Shown here: one piece after another, positions 10,025 to 32,720 of the stretch
How positions within the stretch are numbered: position 1 is the stretch's first letter
How the letters are laid out: each line of letters begins with the position of its first letter
Origin: a virus
Direction: 5' to 3' (one strand)
DNA length: 33,144 nt
IMG/VR virus record: IMGVR_UViG_3300042564_001259
Span: 1 to 33,144 of that record
The notes under the pieces: model-generated
The model's database searches: none
Seen by the model: only the letters and a program-made list of their open reading frames with translations
Told to the model about the DNA's origin: nothing
Translations under genes and position numbers: made by a program

Positions 10025-11044
10025 CTATTTGGTATCCCAAGTCGTTCCTCGGTTAGCCCTAAACCACTCTACTGTTTCGGCAATACCCTCGGACAAAGGC
10101 TTGAAGCTTGAAGGGTCAATGCCGATAGCCTCAAGGGTTGAGATGTCTGCACTAACTACTGTGCCAAGCTCTCTGACAACACGCCTGACATCGGCTGGCC
10201 TTAGCTTAGGGTTAGCAGTCTTGACTGCTTCAACGACTTTCAGCAGTTCTGCCTGAGTGCTCATAGGCCCACCAAAAGGTTCACCGGCTCTCATGGGGAC
10301 AGTTTCGATTGTGCCCTTTATTACATTCTTGATAACTTCATTGGCAACATCTAGGACTGTTGTTGGAAACTCGTTGCCTACATCTATTGGGTGTGTTGGC
10401 ACAATACCCTCGGCTGCCTTTTCTAAGGCTGTCACAAAGACCCTGGCAACATCGCCAACCCAGACTGAATCGCTCACCTGACTGCCATCGCCATAAACCA
10501 TCAGAGGGTCGCCAGCTAGGGCTGAGCATACAAAGCTTGGGACAATCTTTCGGACCTTTGCTGCACCATAAGGCTCTGGGGCAGACTGCCTTGGGCCGTA
10601 GGCGTTCATAGGTCTAACGCTTGTGACTCTTAGCCCACGATCCTCTCGGTACATCTCAACAAATCTTTCAGAGGCAGACTTGGTGATGCAGTATGTTCCT
10701 CTGGCAATGTTGGCATTACCGACAGCTGCAAACACTACTGGCAGGTCATAGCGAGATGCTGCCTCAAATACATTGAGAGTTCCAATGATGTTTGTTTCTG
10801 CTGCTGGCAAGGGTCGGTCAATAGTTTCGACTGTGCCCAAGACTGCTGCTAGATGGATGATGCCGTCAACATGAGCTGCAAACTCCATGACTGCTGTTTC
10901 ATCCCTGACATCTCCAAGCATTACATTGTCAGCGTGGGTGCGTACTCGATGATCTAGGCTCAGGACTGAGTGGCCACGCCTCTCTAGTTCCTCGGCTACC
11001 CAAGACCCGATAAAGCCTTGACCACCTGTGATACCTACCTTCAT
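10025..11044 (-). CDS. NAD-dependent nucleotide-sugar epimerase/dehydratase (extended SDR)
   Basis: 339 residues. GITGGQGFIG at residues 4-13 is the Rossmann nucleotide-binding motif (GxxGxxG), and Y118-x3-K122 (YCITK) is the SDR catalytic pair. HLAAVLG near 64-70 and SVRPMNAYGPRQ are conserved epimerase landmarks. The family converts UDP- or GDP-linked sugars; the substrate cannot be read off here. AGGAGAGAG precedes the ATG. It is the last gene of a four-gene sugar cassette and probably supplies an activated sugar to the three transferases upstream. It is full length for the family. Confidence 0.9.
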   Translation of the reverse strand: MKVGITGGQGFIGSWVAEELERRGHSVLSLDHRVRTHADNVMLGDVRDETAVMEFAAHVDGIIHLAAVLGTVETIDRPLPAAETNIIGTLNVFEAASRYDLPVVFAAVGNANIARGTYCITKSASERFVEMYREDRGLRVTSVRPMNAYGPRQSAPEPYGAAKVRKIVPSFVCSALAGDPLMVYGDGSQVSDSVWVGDVARVFVTALEKAAEGIVPTHPIDVGNEFPTTVLDVANEVIKNVIKGTIETVPMRAGEPFGGPMSTQAELLKVVEAVKTANPKLRPADVRRVVRELGTVVSADISTLEAIGIDPSSFKPLSEGIAETVEWFRANRGTTWDTK

Positions 11045-11053
11045 TGCTCTCTC

Positions 11054-11740
11054 CTAAAAGCCAAGCTCTTGTCGAACTTTAGCGATTGCATCTTGGCCAA
11101 TGCTGTCGTTTATCCTTGGCCTGTTTACTCCACTGAGGGTCACTCTGTCGTGTCCTAAGTCGTGGATAAGCCTAACAGTAGTGGCATGGAATGGCTTGGC
11201 ACCAGCAGCAACACATCTAATGTAAAGCTCCCAGTCATCGTAGAAACTGCCACCTGTAGCACCACCGGTTTTTGCATACAGCTCTCGCTTGATAGGGGCA
11301 TTACCTGGGCAGGTCATTCTGTAAGGGATGTGCTCAGGTTCCCAAGCACCTTCCATGATTGAGCTGTCATGCTTGAATTGCACCTTGTCAATGTAGATGT
11401 CGCAACCCTCAGCATGGGCTTGGTCTAGCTCATCAAAGGCACCTGGCAGATACTGGTCATCAACATCGCCGACAGAGATCCAGTCAGTTGTTAGTGCCCC
11501 CTGCATGGCAAGCCTAAAGTCTGAGTAGTTGCCGGTCATCTCTATTGTCTTTGTTATTGACTTGTAATCTTTCGGGATGTTGGCCAGCACTTCATCCTTG
11601 TTTGCAGGGTCATGGACAATAACTATCTCGGCTGGTTGCTTATTGAGGGATTGGATACCTGCCCACCATCTTGGGTAAAAGCCAGAGTAGCCAGTGCCAA
11701 ACAAGCTTGAGCAGATGCCTATTGTAGGACTGTGTTCCAA
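11054..11740 (-). CDS. Glycosyltransferase, GT-A fold (GT2-like)
   Basis: 228 residues from TTG at 11740, chosen for AAGGAA six bases upstream; it overlaps the preceding gene by 22 bases. The start TIGICSSLFGTGYSGFYPRW and AEIVIVHDPANKDEVL match the nucleotide-binding half of GT2-like enzymes. DVDDQY near residue 93 is the metal-binding DxD, and FYDDWELYIRC fits the later acidic acceptor-site motif (ED/DD-W-x-L). It would use a nucleotide-sugar to glycosylate an unknown acceptor. Second-to-last gene of the cassette. Confidence 0.85.
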   Translation of the reverse strand: MEHSPTIGICSSLFGTGYSGFYPRWWAGIQSLNKQPAEIVIVHDPANKDEVLANIPKDYKSITKTIEMTGNYSDFRLAMQGALTTDWISVGDVDDQYLPGAFDELDQAHAEGCDIYIDKVQFKHDSSIMEGAWEPEHIPYRMTCPGNAPIKRELYAKTGGATGGSFYDDWELYIRCVAAGAKPFHATTVRLIHDLGHDRVTLSGVNRPRINDSIGQDAIAKVRQELGF

Positions 11741-12459
11741 AATAATTCCTTAGAGTTGCTGACTAAGTTTGCCAGTGTTTCTGGGTCTTGCCAGTTAGGG
11801 ATTGAAGTGATGCCAGCTAGGTCGTTTGTGTGAACCTGGCAACCCGACAGGACTGCCTCGATAATTGTGCGTGGCTCGGCATCAAAGCTAGTTGGCAGGA
11901 ATACAAAGTCTTTCGCTCGGCTCATGGCCTCTAAGACTTCTGCCCTTGTCTTGTCATACATCATTAGCAAAGGGATTGAGTTTTGACTGGCCCACTGTAT
12001 TGCTTGTAGTGGCCCCTTTTGCTCATGCCATCTTGCAGCCCAAAGTGCAAAGTTTTCTTTTGGCTTGGCTGTGAACTGGCTTGGGTCATGTGGGCTGATG
12101 ATCCAAGTGCTTTGCTTTGGCTTGGTCCAAGACAGCTCTAGCTCTAAGTGCTTAGGGCTGTGGCAAATAAGGGTTGAGGCAGAGCTAAGTAGTTCGGCTC
12201 TTTCCTCAGTTCTTGTTTGCAAGTGATGCACGGCAACAACAGGCTTTCGCCTAGCAAGCTGTGTCATGGCAAAAGGGCTAAGTAGATCTGTGCCAGTAAT
12301 GACTATCTTGTCAAACTCTAGAGCTTGCTTCCAGTTGTCGGGGGTGATGATTGTGTATTCGGTTGGGGCATCTGTTAGCAATGCCACATCGGTCATCTCT
12401 GCCCCACCGACTAGCTTGCCGTCTTTGTCAGGTAAGTGATGAGATACCCAGGCAATCAC
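11719..12459 (-). CDS. Glycosyltransferase, GT-B fold (GT4-like)
   Basis: 246 residues from GTG at 12459, which overlaps the upstream stop (GTGA); a longer frame starting at ATG 12501 is possible but lacks good ribosome-site spacing. The N-terminal WVSHHLPDKDGKLVGGAEMT is a GT-B-like glycine-rich entry. The C-terminal part has FLPTSFDAEPRTIIEAVLSG, the typical acidic E-x7-E donor-binding region in shortened form. It is short for the GT4 family (usually 350-400), so the N-terminal domain is reduced. Donor and acceptor are unknown. Confidence 0.8.
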   Translation of the reverse strand: MIAWVSHHLPDKDGKLVGGAEMTDVALLTDAPTEYTIITPDNWKQALEFDKIVITGTDLLSPFAMTQLARRKPVVAVHHLQTRTEERAELLSSASTLICHSPKHLELELSWTKPKQSTWIISPHDPSQFTAKPKENFALWAARWHEQKGPLQAIQWASQNSIPLLMMYDKTRAEVLEAMSRAKDFVFLPTSFDAEPRTIIEAVLSGCQVHTNDLAGITSIPNWQDPETLANLVSNSKELFWNTVLQ

Positions 12460-13643
12460 TTGAGTAGTTTCTTTAGCACCGGCATCCAGTTCTCTTGCCA
12501 TACCTTTTCGTGATCATAGTTTTGTGCAAACTTTACAGCCTTGGCTGACTTGTTCTTGCCCTTAGCGTAGGCCTGTTCTAAGGCTTCGACTATCTCTGGC
12601 ACCGATGGGATGTTCCAGAATGAGTGCTGGGCTGGATCGTAGAGTGGCTGACCTGATACTGCCCAACCATCTCCGACTAGCTCAGGTGAGGCAGCAAACT
12701 TGCTAACAATAACTGGAACACCACAAGCCTGAGCCTCAACTGTTGGAATACCAAAGCCCTCGCCATAGCTTGTAGCAAGCATGACATCCCAGCTTGAGTA
12801 GATACCTGCAAGGGTAGATTGTGGCATTCCGTACTTGTAAGCAAGTGGGTCAGGGAATGTCATGTTGTCAATCGGGATACCTAGCAACTGACCCAGTGCC
12901 ATAAGGTTCCAGCCATGAGGTGAGCTGGCATCTGCGTGGATGTAAAGCATTGCGTCTGGGTGCTTTCGGGCAAACATTGCAAAGGCCATCATGTTCTCTG
13001 AATAGGCCTTGCGGTGCAAGATACCTGATGCCTTGTTAGCAGCATTCATGCCAACTACAAAGCGGTCATTCTCAAAACCCATGTATTTGTCAACTGGCAA
13101 GCCGTCAATCTTGTCTGTGAACTTGAATACCTTGGTGTCAATACTGTGAGGGATGTAGTGACCCTCAACACCTGCCTTGTTTATCTGCTCTAGGCCAAAC
13201 TTGCTCATAGCAAGCGGTGTGACATTTTCTTTTTTTAGCCACTTCAAAACTGCTGGTGGGATTGGGTTGTGGTCAATCGGGGTCCAGCTTGCGATAGGGA
13301 TAGTGTCAAAGCCCTTAGCGTTTAGAACCCAAACATCGTAAAGGGTAATCATCAAGTCAGGCTGGTCAGCGTTTAGGGCTTTCCAATGCTTGTGGTGAGA
13401 TGGGGTCACATCATTTGAGTAGGCTTCTGAGCCTCTGGCATAGATTGGAATCTCGCCATACTCGGTGTGGTAGATCGTGTTGATGCCTTCATGCCCATAG
13501 TTAGACAGAGATGCAACATTTGCACCATCACGCTTTAGAAGTTTGACTAGGGCATCGGTGGCTTGGCCGTATCCGGTTGGCTGTCCTGGCGAATTGCTAA
13601 AGACAGATACAGTGCCCTTTAGTTTTCTTTTGGTCTTGCTCAT
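12456..13643 (-). CDS. Glycosyltransferase family 4-type enzyme
   Basis: 395 residues from ATG at 13643, preferred because AAGGGAG lies eight bases upstream; upstream in-frame codons near 13667-13685 lack spacing. The GT-B donor site is clear: SYGEGFGIPTVEAQACGVPV (E-x7-E type), preceded by GIYSSWDVMLATS. The N-terminal domain holds SNSPGQPTGYGQATDAL. Full length for the family. It is the first gene of the sugar cassette, downstream of the capsid terminator, and probably has its own promoter (TAGGAT, 13669-13674). Acceptor could be capsid or fibre protein; that is an inference from position. Confidence 0.88.
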   Translation of the reverse strand: MSKTKRKLKGTVSVFSNSPGQPTGYGQATDALVKLLKRDGANVASLSNYGHEGINTIYHTEYGEIPIYARGSEAYSNDVTPSHHKHWKALNADQPDLMITLYDVWVLNAKGFDTIPIASWTPIDHNPIPPAVLKWLKKENVTPLAMSKFGLEQINKAGVEGHYIPHSIDTKVFKFTDKIDGLPVDKYMGFENDRFVVGMNAANKASGILHRKAYSENMMAFAMFARKHPDAMLYIHADASSPHGWNLMALGQLLGIPIDNMTFPDPLAYKYGMPQSTLAGIYSSWDVMLATSYGEGFGIPTVEAQACGVPVIVSKFAASPELVGDGWAVSGQPLYDPAQHSFWNIPSVPEIVEALEQAYAKGKNKSAKAVKFAQNYDHEKVWQENWMPVLKKLLK

Positions 13644-13668
13644 GTAGGTTTCTCCCTTTGTTGCCATA

Positions 13669-13674
13669 ATCCTA
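13669..13674 (-). promoter_or_regulatory. Candidate extended -10 before the glycosylation cassette
   Basis: TGC-TAGGAT on the minus strand (extended -10 form TGnTAnnnT) begins right after the capsid terminator T-run, about 25 bases upstream of the start at 13643. No convincing -35 is visible. Confidence 0.4.
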
Positions 13675-13718
13675 GCAAAAGACAAGCCCCAAGCGAACCT
13701 ACACGCTTGGGGCTTGTC
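13674..13718 (-). terminator. Strong rho-independent terminator after the major capsid gene
   Basis: A perfect 15-bp inverted repeat (arms 13681-13695 and 13704-13718, loop of 8) is followed on the minus strand by TTTTGC. It begins about 20 bases past the capsid stop and is the strongest hairpin I see in the window. Confidence 0.92.
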
Positions 13719-26450: not shown

Positions 26451-26498
26451 CACCTTTTTTGGCTTTTTTTGGTATTTTTTGTGTTTTTTTGCCTTTTT
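26451..26498 (-). repeat. Five phased A-tracts (predicted curved DNA)
   Basis: Minus-strand A-runs of 5, 7, 6, 7 and 6 lie at 26498-26494, 26490-26484, 26480-26475, 26470-26464 and 26460-26455. Their centres are 9-10.5 bases apart, close to one helical turn. This is the standard pattern for intrinsic bending. It fills the gap between RusA and the small-gene cluster. Confidence 0.8.
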
Positions 26499-26508
26499 CG
26501 GCGTGTCG

Positions 26509-27700: not shown

Positions 27701-28933
27701 TTAGCCTTCGACAACTCTGGACAGGTGACCCTCGAACTTGAGTCCTACTTCACCTAAGCCACCTTGTCGGTTCTTAGCAACCTTCATAATCATCCAGCTC
27801 TTTTGCCACTCAAATTGGTCCTCAGCGATTGACTCTCGGTGAAGCAGAATTACTGCATCTGCATCCTGCTCAATTCCACCTGAATCTCTTAGGTCAGCTA
27901 GGTCAGGCTTAGAGTCTTTGCGTTGCTCTGGTCCTCTGTTGAGCTGGGCTAGAGCAATGACTGGAACCTCTAGATCTCTGGCAAGGTTCTTTAGACCGAT
28001 GGAGATGTCAGTAATCATCTCGTAGCGTTTGCGGCCCTTTTCGGTGTCCTGAATCAAGCCCAGATAATCAACAACGATTGCTTGAAGCTGGCCGTTAGAT
28101 TTGACTCCATTTGACATAGCCCTAATCTGCAAAAGGTTTTGTCCTGACTTATCATGGATGGCAAGCTGATGGCTGGTTATCTTTTCTTTAGCTCTTGCAA
28201 TCTTGTCCCAGTCAATGTCTTTGAGTGTTCCCTTTTCAATGTTGCCGATGTAAACCTCGGCTTCCATGCTGATGATGCGATTGTAAAGTTCTGCTTTGCC
28301 CATCTCAAGGCTGTGAAAGCTGACCGGACCTTGCTTTGATAGTTCCCAAGCAATCTGCAAACCAACGATGGTCTTACCGATACCAGGTCGAGCACCGATG
28401 ATGTAAAGGGCACCTGGTCTAAAGCCCCCAAGGATGTCGTTGAGGTCTTTCCAAGGGCTAAGTGGATAGTTCTTTGGCTTGTCAATCTCATCTAGGTAAG
28501 GGATTAGCTCATCGCTGACATAGCTTGGTCGGCTGGCTGTGTTGCGATCACTTAGGTTGTCAATTTCTTTTTTGGCTTGGTCAATGACTGTTGCCAAGTC
28601 CTCATGCTGAGCTTTGATGTTTATTACTTGTCCGGCATGAGCAAGCTTTCGCCTGGTGACTTCCTCAATCACTCGCTCGGCATAGTAGCCAACAGAAGCA
28701 GCAGTTGGTGTTGCGGTTATGCAGTCATGTAAGTAGCTGGCAAGCTTTGGCAGCATTGCTCCGACTGTGATCACATCTATTGGCTGGCGAGCTTGTTTCA
28801 TCTCCAGCATTGTTGCGTAGATTTTCTCGTGCCCAAGATCGTCAAAGTCTTTGGCTGTGAGCGTCAGGTCATCGAGTGCCTTGCCGTTTGTCAGCAAGAC
28901 AGAGCCGATGACTAGCTGCTCAAACTCGCTCAC
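27701..28933 (-). CDS. dnaB: Replicative DNA helicase, DnaB type
   Basis: 410 residues. Walker A GARPGIGKT at 180-188, Walker B AIVVDYLGL with D289, the H3-type segment VIALAQLNRG (325-334), and LRDSGGIEQDADAVILLHRE (from 348) near the C-terminus, all typical of the RecA-like ATPase of DnaB. The N-terminal domain (VIGSVLLTNGKALDDL) is also the DnaB kind. The ATG overlaps the initiator stop by four bases, so initiator and helicase are made together. It unwinds DNA at the fork; the initiator upstream may act as its loader. Confidence 0.93.
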   Translation of the reverse strand: MSEFEQLVIGSVLLTNGKALDDLTLTAKDFDDLGHEKIYATMLEMKQARQPIDVITVGAMLPKLASYLHDCITATPTAASVGYYAERVIEEVTRRKLAHAGQVINIKAQHEDLATVIDQAKKEIDNLSDRNTASRPSYVSDELIPYLDEIDKPKNYPLSPWKDLNDILGGFRPGALYIIGARPGIGKTIVGLQIAWELSKQGPVSFHSLEMGKAELYNRIISMEAEVYIGNIEKGTLKDIDWDKIARAKEKITSHQLAIHDKSGQNLLQIRAMSNGVKSNGQLQAIVVDYLGLIQDTEKGRKRYEMITDISIGLKNLARDLEVPVIALAQLNRGPEQRKDSKPDLADLRDSGGIEQDADAVILLHRESIAEDQFEWQKSWMIMKVAKNRQGGLGEVGLKFEGHLSRVVEG

Positions 28934-29607
28934 TTGATTCTGCCAAAGATAGGTTTGCTGGCCTGTTTAGGTTTCTCGTTCTCGACTGCTTCGTAGAGCC
29001 CTTTGTTAAGCCAAGAGGCTGGGTAGGGAATGTAGGTCATGTCGGGTAGCTTACTTTCAGAATAAGCTTTGGTGATGCCAATCATCTCATCAGCGGTTTT
29101 CTTTTTTAGCACTTGCTTCCATGCTTTTAGGGCATCAGCTTTAGCTACCTTTTTAGGGTAAAGATTCCAGAAAGTTTCAAACGATTCATCAGCCTGTTTA
29201 GTTAATGTTTCTTTTAGGGTTCTATTAAGGGTTAACACGCCACCTGCTGTCACCTCTGAAGCCGATTCTGTCACCTCTGACTCCAAATCTGTCACCTCTG
29301 AAGCGGTTTTTGTCACCTCTGAAACCTCATTTGTCACCCCTGGCAGGTTCACAAAATACCGGTTGGCTTTGTAGGGTCCATAGGTCGGTGCAGACCTAAA
29401 CTCGACCACTAACTCACCCAGCTCAATGAGCTCTTGGATGTCACGCTGGACAGATCTAGGCGATGAGTTGACCATCTTTGCCAAGGTTTCGATTGAAGGC
29501 CATGCACCTAATTCGCCTTGGTGGTCAGCGATAGATAGCAGGACCAATCTGGCTCGGCCTTTTGATTTACTCTCACGCCAAACAGCGTTCATAATTTGGA
29601 TGCTCAT
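28930..29607 (-). CDS. Replication initiator with winged-helix N-terminus and iteron-encoding middle
   Basis: 225 residues. Residues 15-85 carry a winged helix (RLVLLSIADHQGELGAWPS, LAKMVNSSPRSVQRDIQELI). Residues 90-124 are five seven-residue repeats (EVTKTAS, EVTDLES, EVTESAS type), and the C-terminus has ETFWNLYPKKVAKADALKAW, a segment common to phage replication initiators/helicase loaders. The repeat is encoded by the DNA iterons, so initiator and probable origin overlap, as in lambda O. Ends four bases inside dnaB. Upstream gene overlaps by four bases. Confidence 0.85.
   Translation of the reverse strand: MSIQIMNAVWRESKSKGRARLVLLSIADHQGELGAWPSIETLAKMVNSSPRSVQRDIQELIELGELVVEFRSAPTYGPYKANRYFVNLPGVTNEVSEVTKTASEVTDLESEVTESASEVTAGGVLTLNRTLKETLTKQADESFETFWNLYPKKVAKADALKAWKQVLKKKTADEMIGITKAYSESKLPDMTYIPYPASWLNKGLYEAVENEKPKQASKPIFGRIK
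29150..29240. other. A/T-rich stretch beside the iterons (candidate unwinding element)
   Basis: Coding, but visibly richer in A/T than flanking sequence (AAGATTCCAGAAAGTTTC, TTTAGTTAATGTTTCTTTTA, GTTCTATTAAGGGTTAAC). It directly adjoins the five iterons. The combination of iterons plus A/T-rich element is the usual phage ori layout. Confidence 0.5.
29248..29343 (-). repeat. Five iterons, 21-bp period, inside the initiator gene (candidate origin)
   Basis: The 12-mer TGTCACCTCTGA (plus strand) starts at 29248, 29269, 29290 and 29311, exactly 21 bases apart; a fifth diverged copy (TGTCACCCCTGG) starts at 29332. All four perfect copies use the same codons TCA GAG GTG ACA, although synonyms exist, suggesting a DNA-level constraint. 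Two helical turns per repeat puts sites on one face. Confidence 0.82.
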
Positions 29608-32447: not shown

Positions 32448-32460
32448 GACCCTATGACAA
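32433..32460 (-). promoter_or_regulatory. Candidate early promoter for the exonuclease operon
   Basis: On the minus strand TTGTCA (5/6 match to TTGACA) at 32460-32455, spacer of 16 bases, TAATCT at 32438-32433. Transcription would begin near 32426 and pass through the 32389-32419 hairpin to the ribosome site before 32363. It overlaps the WhiB promoter face to face. Confidence 0.5.
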
Positions 32461-32720
32461 GACAGCTTGAAAGAAAATACATTGAACTACAACACGCCAT
32501 AACTGAGAATGGGGGTGTTCAATGTAGTCAGTTGCCTGAGTGCTTTTTCCCAGAGGATGAGCCAGATGTGTACCTGCGTAAAAAGCTGATTGCCGTAGCT
32601 AAGGAAGTCTGCAACGACTGTCCGGTCAGACTAAGGTGCTTTGACTATGCCTTATCAGCAGGGATGGTAGGCATTTGGGGTGGCACTACCGCTGAGGAAC
32701 GCTCGAAGCTGAGGTCTTAG
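32454..32720 (+). CDS. whiB: WhiB-family iron-sulfur transcription factor
   Basis: 88 residues, the only plus-strand gene. Cluster ligands C24, C53, C56, C62 (CNDCPVRLRC plus upstream C24, with C30 as an extra) and the GIWGG turn (73-77) followed by TTAEERSKL. FFP at 31-33 is also typical. WhiB proteins bind a 4Fe-4S cluster and the primary sigma factor; phage copies can interfere with host WhiB action, as reported for the mycobacteriophage TM4 protein. The start has no ribosome site, consistent with a leaderless mRNA. It ends in a 4-base overlap with the convergent holin-like gene. Confidence 0.95.
   Translation: MTRQLERKYIELQHAITENGGVQCSQLPECFFPEDEPDVYLRKKLIAVAKEVCNDCPVRLRCFDYALSAGMVGIWGGTTAEERSKLRS

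Follow-up and report, generated by a model that had tools for sequence, protein, structure and literature searches.

Five copies of a nonamer, GRGGTGACA, lie within the replication initiator gene of a freshwater phage and constitute a DNA element under selection, independent of coding frame and strand and tied to the family of O-like winged-helix initiators. The array is most probably the replication origin of the phage, of the lambda/P22 type, located in the initiator gene and bound by the winged helix of its own product (probability roughly 0.86). The DNA analysed, hereafter the window, comprises an entire IMG/VR virus record (33,144 bases), which is classed as linear and may be a fragment.

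The initiator gene and its iteron array

The initiator gene (28930..29607, minus strand) encodes a protein of 225 amino acids composed of a winged-helix N-terminus, an iteron-encoded linker and a helical C-terminal domain. The protein matched PHROG 270 (3.7e-35), 8540 and 391, annotated as 'replication initiation O-like', and the Pfam helix-turn-helix family HTH_36 at residues 17-64 (29416..29559, minus strand; 4.7e-11), a stretch that includes R55 of the recognition helix (codon at 29443-29445, minus strand). An AlphaFold2 model predicted a confident winged helix at residues 1-90 and a helical C-terminal domain at residues 132-210. By PHROG, HTH_36 and the model, the gene thus encodes an O-like initiator with an N-terminal DNA-binding domain. 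Residues 96-131 between the two domains (29215..29322, minus strand), which overlap iterons 2-5 and are largely iteron-encoded, were modelled with low confidence (pLDDT <50) and are predicted to be disordered, so the protein may be able to tolerate a constraint on the DNA at this place. The winged-helix matches from a fold search of the PDB were all weak (best E 0.013), with plasmid initiators and the DnaD N-domain among them, and a PDB sequence search with the initiator gave nothing useful. The window protein did not qualify as a DnaD-type helicase loader, as its DnaD_N match (E=0.042) reached 14.5 bits against a cut-off of 27.

Directly downstream lies a gene for a DnaB-type replicative helicase (27701..28933, minus strand; Pfam DnaB_C 5.9e-74, DnaB N-terminal 1.4e-15), the start of which overlaps the initiator stop by 4 bases. 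The open reading frames downstream of the initiators of L013, L014 and L118 were likewise read as helicases. Elsewhere in the window, translations alone pointed to a small gene reading as a WhiB-type regulator (32454-32720, plus strand), which suggests an actinobacterial host, and to epimerase-like and glycosyltransferase-like frames amid structural genes (10025-13685, minus strand). An intergenic segment at 26454-26502 contained A-tracts (T-tracts on the plus strand) recurring about every 10 bases, an arrangement that would be expected to make the DNA curved, and similar stretches with small changes were present in L008 (about 5900) and L009 (about 4560).

The five GRGGTGACA copies occupy 29248-29340 on the minus strand, with start-to-start distances of 21, 21, 21 and 21 bases. 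In gene order, iteron 1 (29332..29340) reads GGGGTGACA, and iterons 2 (29311..29319), 3 (29290..29298), 4 (29269..29277) and 5 (29248..29256) read GAGGTGACA. The first-pass annotation had described five copies of a 12-mer at an exact 21-base period, four of them with identical codons. The number of copies, their period in the window and the identical codons were all recovered, four of the five copies being exactly TCAGAGGTGACA (TCA GAG GTG ACA; 29311-29322 in the case of iteron 2). The length of the unit was revised, since the first copy in gene order, CCAGGGGTGACA, carries 2 mismatches and the core common to all copies is therefore the 9-bp GRGGTGACA. Direct repeats spaced by ~20-24 bp are accordingly present within the coding region, in the part that encodes the interdomain linker.

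The tandem repeat score of the window was 106 at period 21 and 129 at period 42. Seven core matches were observed in the 33 kb against 0.64 expected, a number reached by none of 100 dinucleotide shuffles. Among 20,000 synonymous-codon shuffles of the initiator gene, five copies never occurred and four copies occurred once. GTG is the rarest valine codon in the window (17%), and the codon usage of the window gives TCA-GAG-GTG-ACA a probability of 0.015 per copy for the peptide S-E-V-T. A second GRGGTGACA array was not found in the window.

Conservation of the core in every open frame and on both strands

A set of homologues selected by protein similarity was compared codon by codon. In pairwise comparisons among the window, L011, L012 and L013, the last three sharing 76-79% protein identity with the window, the core codons exhibited 0 synonymous differences at 106 comparisons (which are not independent of each other), whereas 340 of 857 differed outside the array. 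The spacers between the cores had synonymous differences at 7 of 52 comparisons in the same sequences. For the single pair of window and L013, the values were 0 of 17 in the core and 56 of 137 outside. In the 65%-identical L014-L022, the in-frame form is TCA GGG GTG ACA, and the third copy has slid by one base to AGC AGG GGT GAC AGC, with spacings of 21, 22 and 23. This out-of-frame copy indicates that the DNA was kept and the peptide was not.

The wider distribution of the core was investigated by scanning IMG/VR, by DNA pattern alone, for three copies of GGGGTGACA with gaps of 8-20 bases. At least 120 stretches were retrieved, compared with 3 for the reversed string ACAGTGGGG. Among the matches listed, the arrays lay in sense at 107 of 118 loci, and when the encoded proteins were clustered at 60% identity, the 131 sense arrays, homologue set included, gave 30 clusters, of which L137 probably reflects a wrong choice of frame. 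Two reading frames were mixed within one gene in 22 of the 30 cluster representatives; the third frame was never used by sense arrays because it is closed by the TGA stop. Among the 11 remaining arrays, those of L064, L066, L076, L086, L100 and L122 lay within an initiator-like frame but in the opposite orientation (TGTCACCCC). Apart from L066, these carry TGTCACCCC in all three frames between them and encode proteins matching O-like initiator PHROGs. The repeats are thus conserved as DNA whatever the coding frame, and these frame shifts and strand reversals in other initiator genes identify the DNA as the unit of selection. Arrays in L027, L059, L074 and L137 were excluded as support, as each apparently reflects chance, low sequence complexity or an incorrect choice of frame.

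Among the 98 pairs of neighbouring copies spaced by no more than 28 bases, 91 were 20-25 bases apart, mostly 21-23. The array spacing is about two helical turns, and exactly 21 bases are not required; the 'exact' helical phasing put forward in the first-pass annotation was therefore overstated. A fuller dyad, GGGGTGACA-N3/4-TGTCACC, was present in several loci and in phage PMBT6; in the window iterons only one half-site is well kept and the second is not evident. In L032 (4930-5060), dyad copies related to GGGGTGACATCATGTAACCC occur in an intergenic region; a possible initiator gene begins shortly downstream and is followed in turn by a helicase-like gene. This arrangement only hints at a non-coding version of the array, since the possible initiator has no PHROG match.

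In a scan of genome contigs, most of the arrays retrieved had no sense reading frame and many were simple tandem repeats; a sense mixed-frame subset resembles prophage initiators, with a PHROG 270 match in 5 of 8 genomes tried. Genomes of Candidatus Chloroploca (L195, L204, L209, L212, L214, L227, L232 and L243) contained many GGGGTGACA arrays, several per genome, at 21/22/28 spacing and without a sense ORF. A scan for GGCGTCACC, which encodes GVT with other codons, was rejected as a synonymous-peptide control: most of the initiators it retrieved contain the reverse complement GGTGACGCC, another GTGAC iteron, so that the control is not clean.

These comparisons bear on three readings that place selection elsewhere than on a DNA site or dispense with it. 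All five window copies share one frame and their period is a multiple of three, as would be expected if GVT/EVT heptapeptides were selected as protein, with codons alike by chance or through recent duplication. This reading is refuted by other genes, in which the change of frame or strand turns the nonamer into RGD/GGD or CHP/VSP/VTP; the cores also lack synonymous change across homologues while the remainder diverges, the encoded peptide is predicted to be disordered, and we consider a peptide repeat extremely improbable. The inference of DNA-level selection from codon conservation was thus borne out, and the normal synonymous divergence within the repeat that would have spoken against it was absent. 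Tandem repeats do homogenise, and recent duplication or gene conversion might hold copies alike without any function, but the 9-12 nt spacers vary from copy to copy with constant cores, every copy retains its own spacer across homologues, and elsewhere the spacing shifts by single bases with the core unchanged; the chance of this explanation is negligible. An element acting in RNA, such as a Shine-Dalgarno-like GAGGTGA that slows translation, has in its favour that GAGGTGA reads like a ribosome binding site. However, the mRNA of L064, L076, L086, L100 and L122 contains the complement TGTCACCCC with the place and spacing of the array unchanged, and GGGGTGACA, the commonest form in the other phages found, is a poorer match to a ribosome binding site, which leaves this reading scarcely credible.

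Initiators that carry the array and residue R55

The selection of most arrays relied on a DNA pattern and on nothing else, and the initiator gene context was thus not built into it. Among 56 aligned array-bearing initiators, 55 matched PHROG 270 and 1032, and 54 matched HTH_36. Bifidobacterium phage PMBT6 is a cultured carrier of the core. Other cultured relatives have different in-gene repeats, namely GGGGTGAACG at 22-base steps in Renna12, ACCCCCGCAG in CUB19, AAAGGGTGCAA in PHB09, CCCCTATGCC in RothD and GGGTAGTGACAC in mEp044. In initiators picked from genomes by protein family, repeats spaced by 21-24 bases were common and the GRGGTGACA core was rare, which makes this core one iteron type of several and not a constant of the family. 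Many protein-picked prophage initiators had no repeat that beat the synonymous-codon shuffle with the detector used here, so it does not follow that every member of the family has an array within its gene. Arrays of the GGTGACGCC type in R55 initiators (L152, L157, L161-L165, L170 and L172) represent a sister iteron type. Two genes, L024 (969-1655) and L025 (5698-6378), encode a window-like C-terminal domain with different N-terminal DNA-binding domains and contain no iterons; the missing array despite the same C-terminus suggests that iterons travel with the DNA-binding domain. In both genes a domain exchange appears near the linker/iteron region.

R55 was the sole invariant residue across the 56 aligned array-bearing initiators, and among 107 clusters every GTGAC-array gene had it except L316, a weak case. 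Among protein-picked clusters, R55 occurred with an array in 8 and without one in 16, whereas clusters with another residue had an array in 0 and none in 34 (8/24 versus 0/34; Fisher p=0.0004). Contrasts on the tree, for example L380 versus L300/L377/L379/L381, L302 versus the SfV-like group and L072 versus PHB09, ran in the expected direction in 4-5 of 5-6 supported pairs and were hardly ever opposed; the covariation of R55 and array is not significant once corrected for phylogeny (p about 0.06). The sequence pattern supports, but does not prove, that a window-type initiator reads its own in-gene sites. A recognition code, to which we give an even chance, would have R55 O-like winged-helix initiators read GTGAC cores (GGGGTGACA, GAGGTGACA, GGGGTGACGCC and GGGTAGTGACAC) and relatives with another residue read other, often G-rich, cores. 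If this code is true, sequence alone would suffice to locate the origins of uncultured phages and to predict cross-talk between them.

The array as a putative replication origin

An A/T-rich flank adjoining the repeats, claimed in the first-pass annotation, was confirmed, though it is modest in the window. The 60 nt 3' of the array contain 60% A+T compared with 53.7% for the initiator gene, and 7% of the 60-nt stretches of the window are at least as A/T-rich. The A/T maximum of the gene (29169..29228; 70% A+T), a candidate DNA unwinding element, begins 19 nt past the array. Across clusters an A/T-rich stretch beside the repeats was evident, as the 60 nt after the array were A/T-richer than the gene in 23 of 27 (p=1.6e-5). 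At third codon positions after the array, A/T content was 53% versus 30%, and the difference held in 25 of 27 clusters (p=1.3e-6), GC-rich genomes included.

The reading of the array as the phage ori is supported by analogy, since the identity of the gene, the neighbouring helicase, the A/T-rich flank and the predicted disordered linker all fit an origin of the lambda/P22 type. That the same protein binds the array, that the DNA is unwound and the helicase loaded, and that the array acts as an origin, we infer from lambda, P22, phage L and SPP1. The winged-helix N-terminus would bind the five iterons in the linker-coding part of its own gene, with R55 of the recognition helix probably reading part of GTGAC. 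Bending or wrapping of the DNA by the iteron-bound proteins may open the A/T-rich stretch, and the DnaB-type helicase that the phage itself encodes in the adjacent gene may be recruited by the C-terminal domain. The GC skew around 29 kb, proposed earlier as a check, gave no clear turning point in the window; because one-sided gene orientation confounds it, it carries no usable origin signal and was rejected as evidence.

The main rival is an autoregulatory operator, at which the initiator would limit transcription of its own gene and of the downstream helicase gene, with the origin elsewhere. An operator bound by the initiator at the DNA level predicts identical sequence evidence, and the helicase gene does lie downstream of the array and is transcribed in the same direction. 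Such a role would leave unexplained the 3' A/T-rich stretch in 23 of the 27 clusters and the match to the mapped layouts of lambda, P22 and SPP1 (PMC7466680, PMC8022706, PMC6316719). We regard it as unlikely in place of an origin, and the two roles are compatible and may coexist. Less likely still is a partition or other centromere-like site of a plasmid prophage. Direct repeats adjoining a winged-helix gene are known at partition sites too, but a scan of neighbouring proteins revealed nothing recognisable as ParA/ParB-like, and arrays accompany this O-like initiator family in many phages, together with the A/T-rich flank.

Comparison with known phage origins

In-gene origins of this kind are already known from lambda, P22, phage L and SPP1 oriL. 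Within the reach of our searches, the new elements are the window member, the GTGAC core common to many phages and its occurrence in each of the open frames and in either orientation, together with R55 as a candidate specificity residue. No earlier account of the GRGGTGACA core as a phage iteron was found among the top matches in the open-licence literature. The array provides a sequence-only origin call for a group of uncultured freshwater and other phages, and the recurrence of one iteron core in the initiator genes of many phages offers a natural experiment on a regulatory DNA site kept inside coding sequence. The R55 candidate adds a testable link between initiator and origin, the specificity of which was not decoded in the cited work on P22-like phages (PMC8022706).

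The HTH-domain protein gene of PMBT6 (MH444512.1) shares the core, as CGGGGTGACACCCATGTCACC, and encodes R55; its spacings are 32, 22, 23 and 22 with mixed frames, and each iteron forms a fuller dyad, whereas the window iterons have one well-kept half-site. The actinophage HTH initiators of mycobacterial prophage RepA replicons have an origin suspected immediately upstream of or within repA (mBio 2020, PMC7157519), without repeats found. In SPP1, oriL lies in gene 38, within which the initiator binds direct repeats; an A/T-rich unwinding element is present as well, and the helicase is a DnaB-type enzyme of the phage (PMC6316719). SPP1 differs in having another origin, oriR, and in using gp39 as a separate loader, whereas the window yielded a single GRGGTGACA array.

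The earlier statement that lambda O and related initiators carry iterons inside their genes agrees with the annotations of lambda and P22 and with published work (PMC7466680, PMC8022706). The lambda O gene has four annotated mid-gene iterons spaced by 20, 24 and 23 bases in frames 0, 2, 2 and 1, an array type like that of the window; an A/T-rich tract lies beside the iterons, which are bound by the O protein (PMC7466680). The lambda iteron, ATCCCTCAAAACGAGGGA, is unlike the window core, and lambda encodes the helicase loader P next door and no DnaB helicase of its own, whereas the window phage has a DnaB-type helicase. The iterons bound by the initiators of lambda, P22 and L, each within its own coding region, seem to differ from one phage to the next, and the link between initiator and origin is known to be specific in P22-like phages (PMC8022706). 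P22 gp18 was absent among the relatives listed for the window protein, and the P22 iterons differ, for example ATTTACCAGATCGGTAAAAC, and are without the GRGGTGACA core. In its layout P22, with which gene 18 of phage L is grouped, resembles the window: the O-like initiator gene 18 contains ~20-bp iterons, annotated as rep_origin, at spacings of 20, 24 and 23, and the DnaB-type helicase gene 12 adjoins it with the same 4-base overlap.
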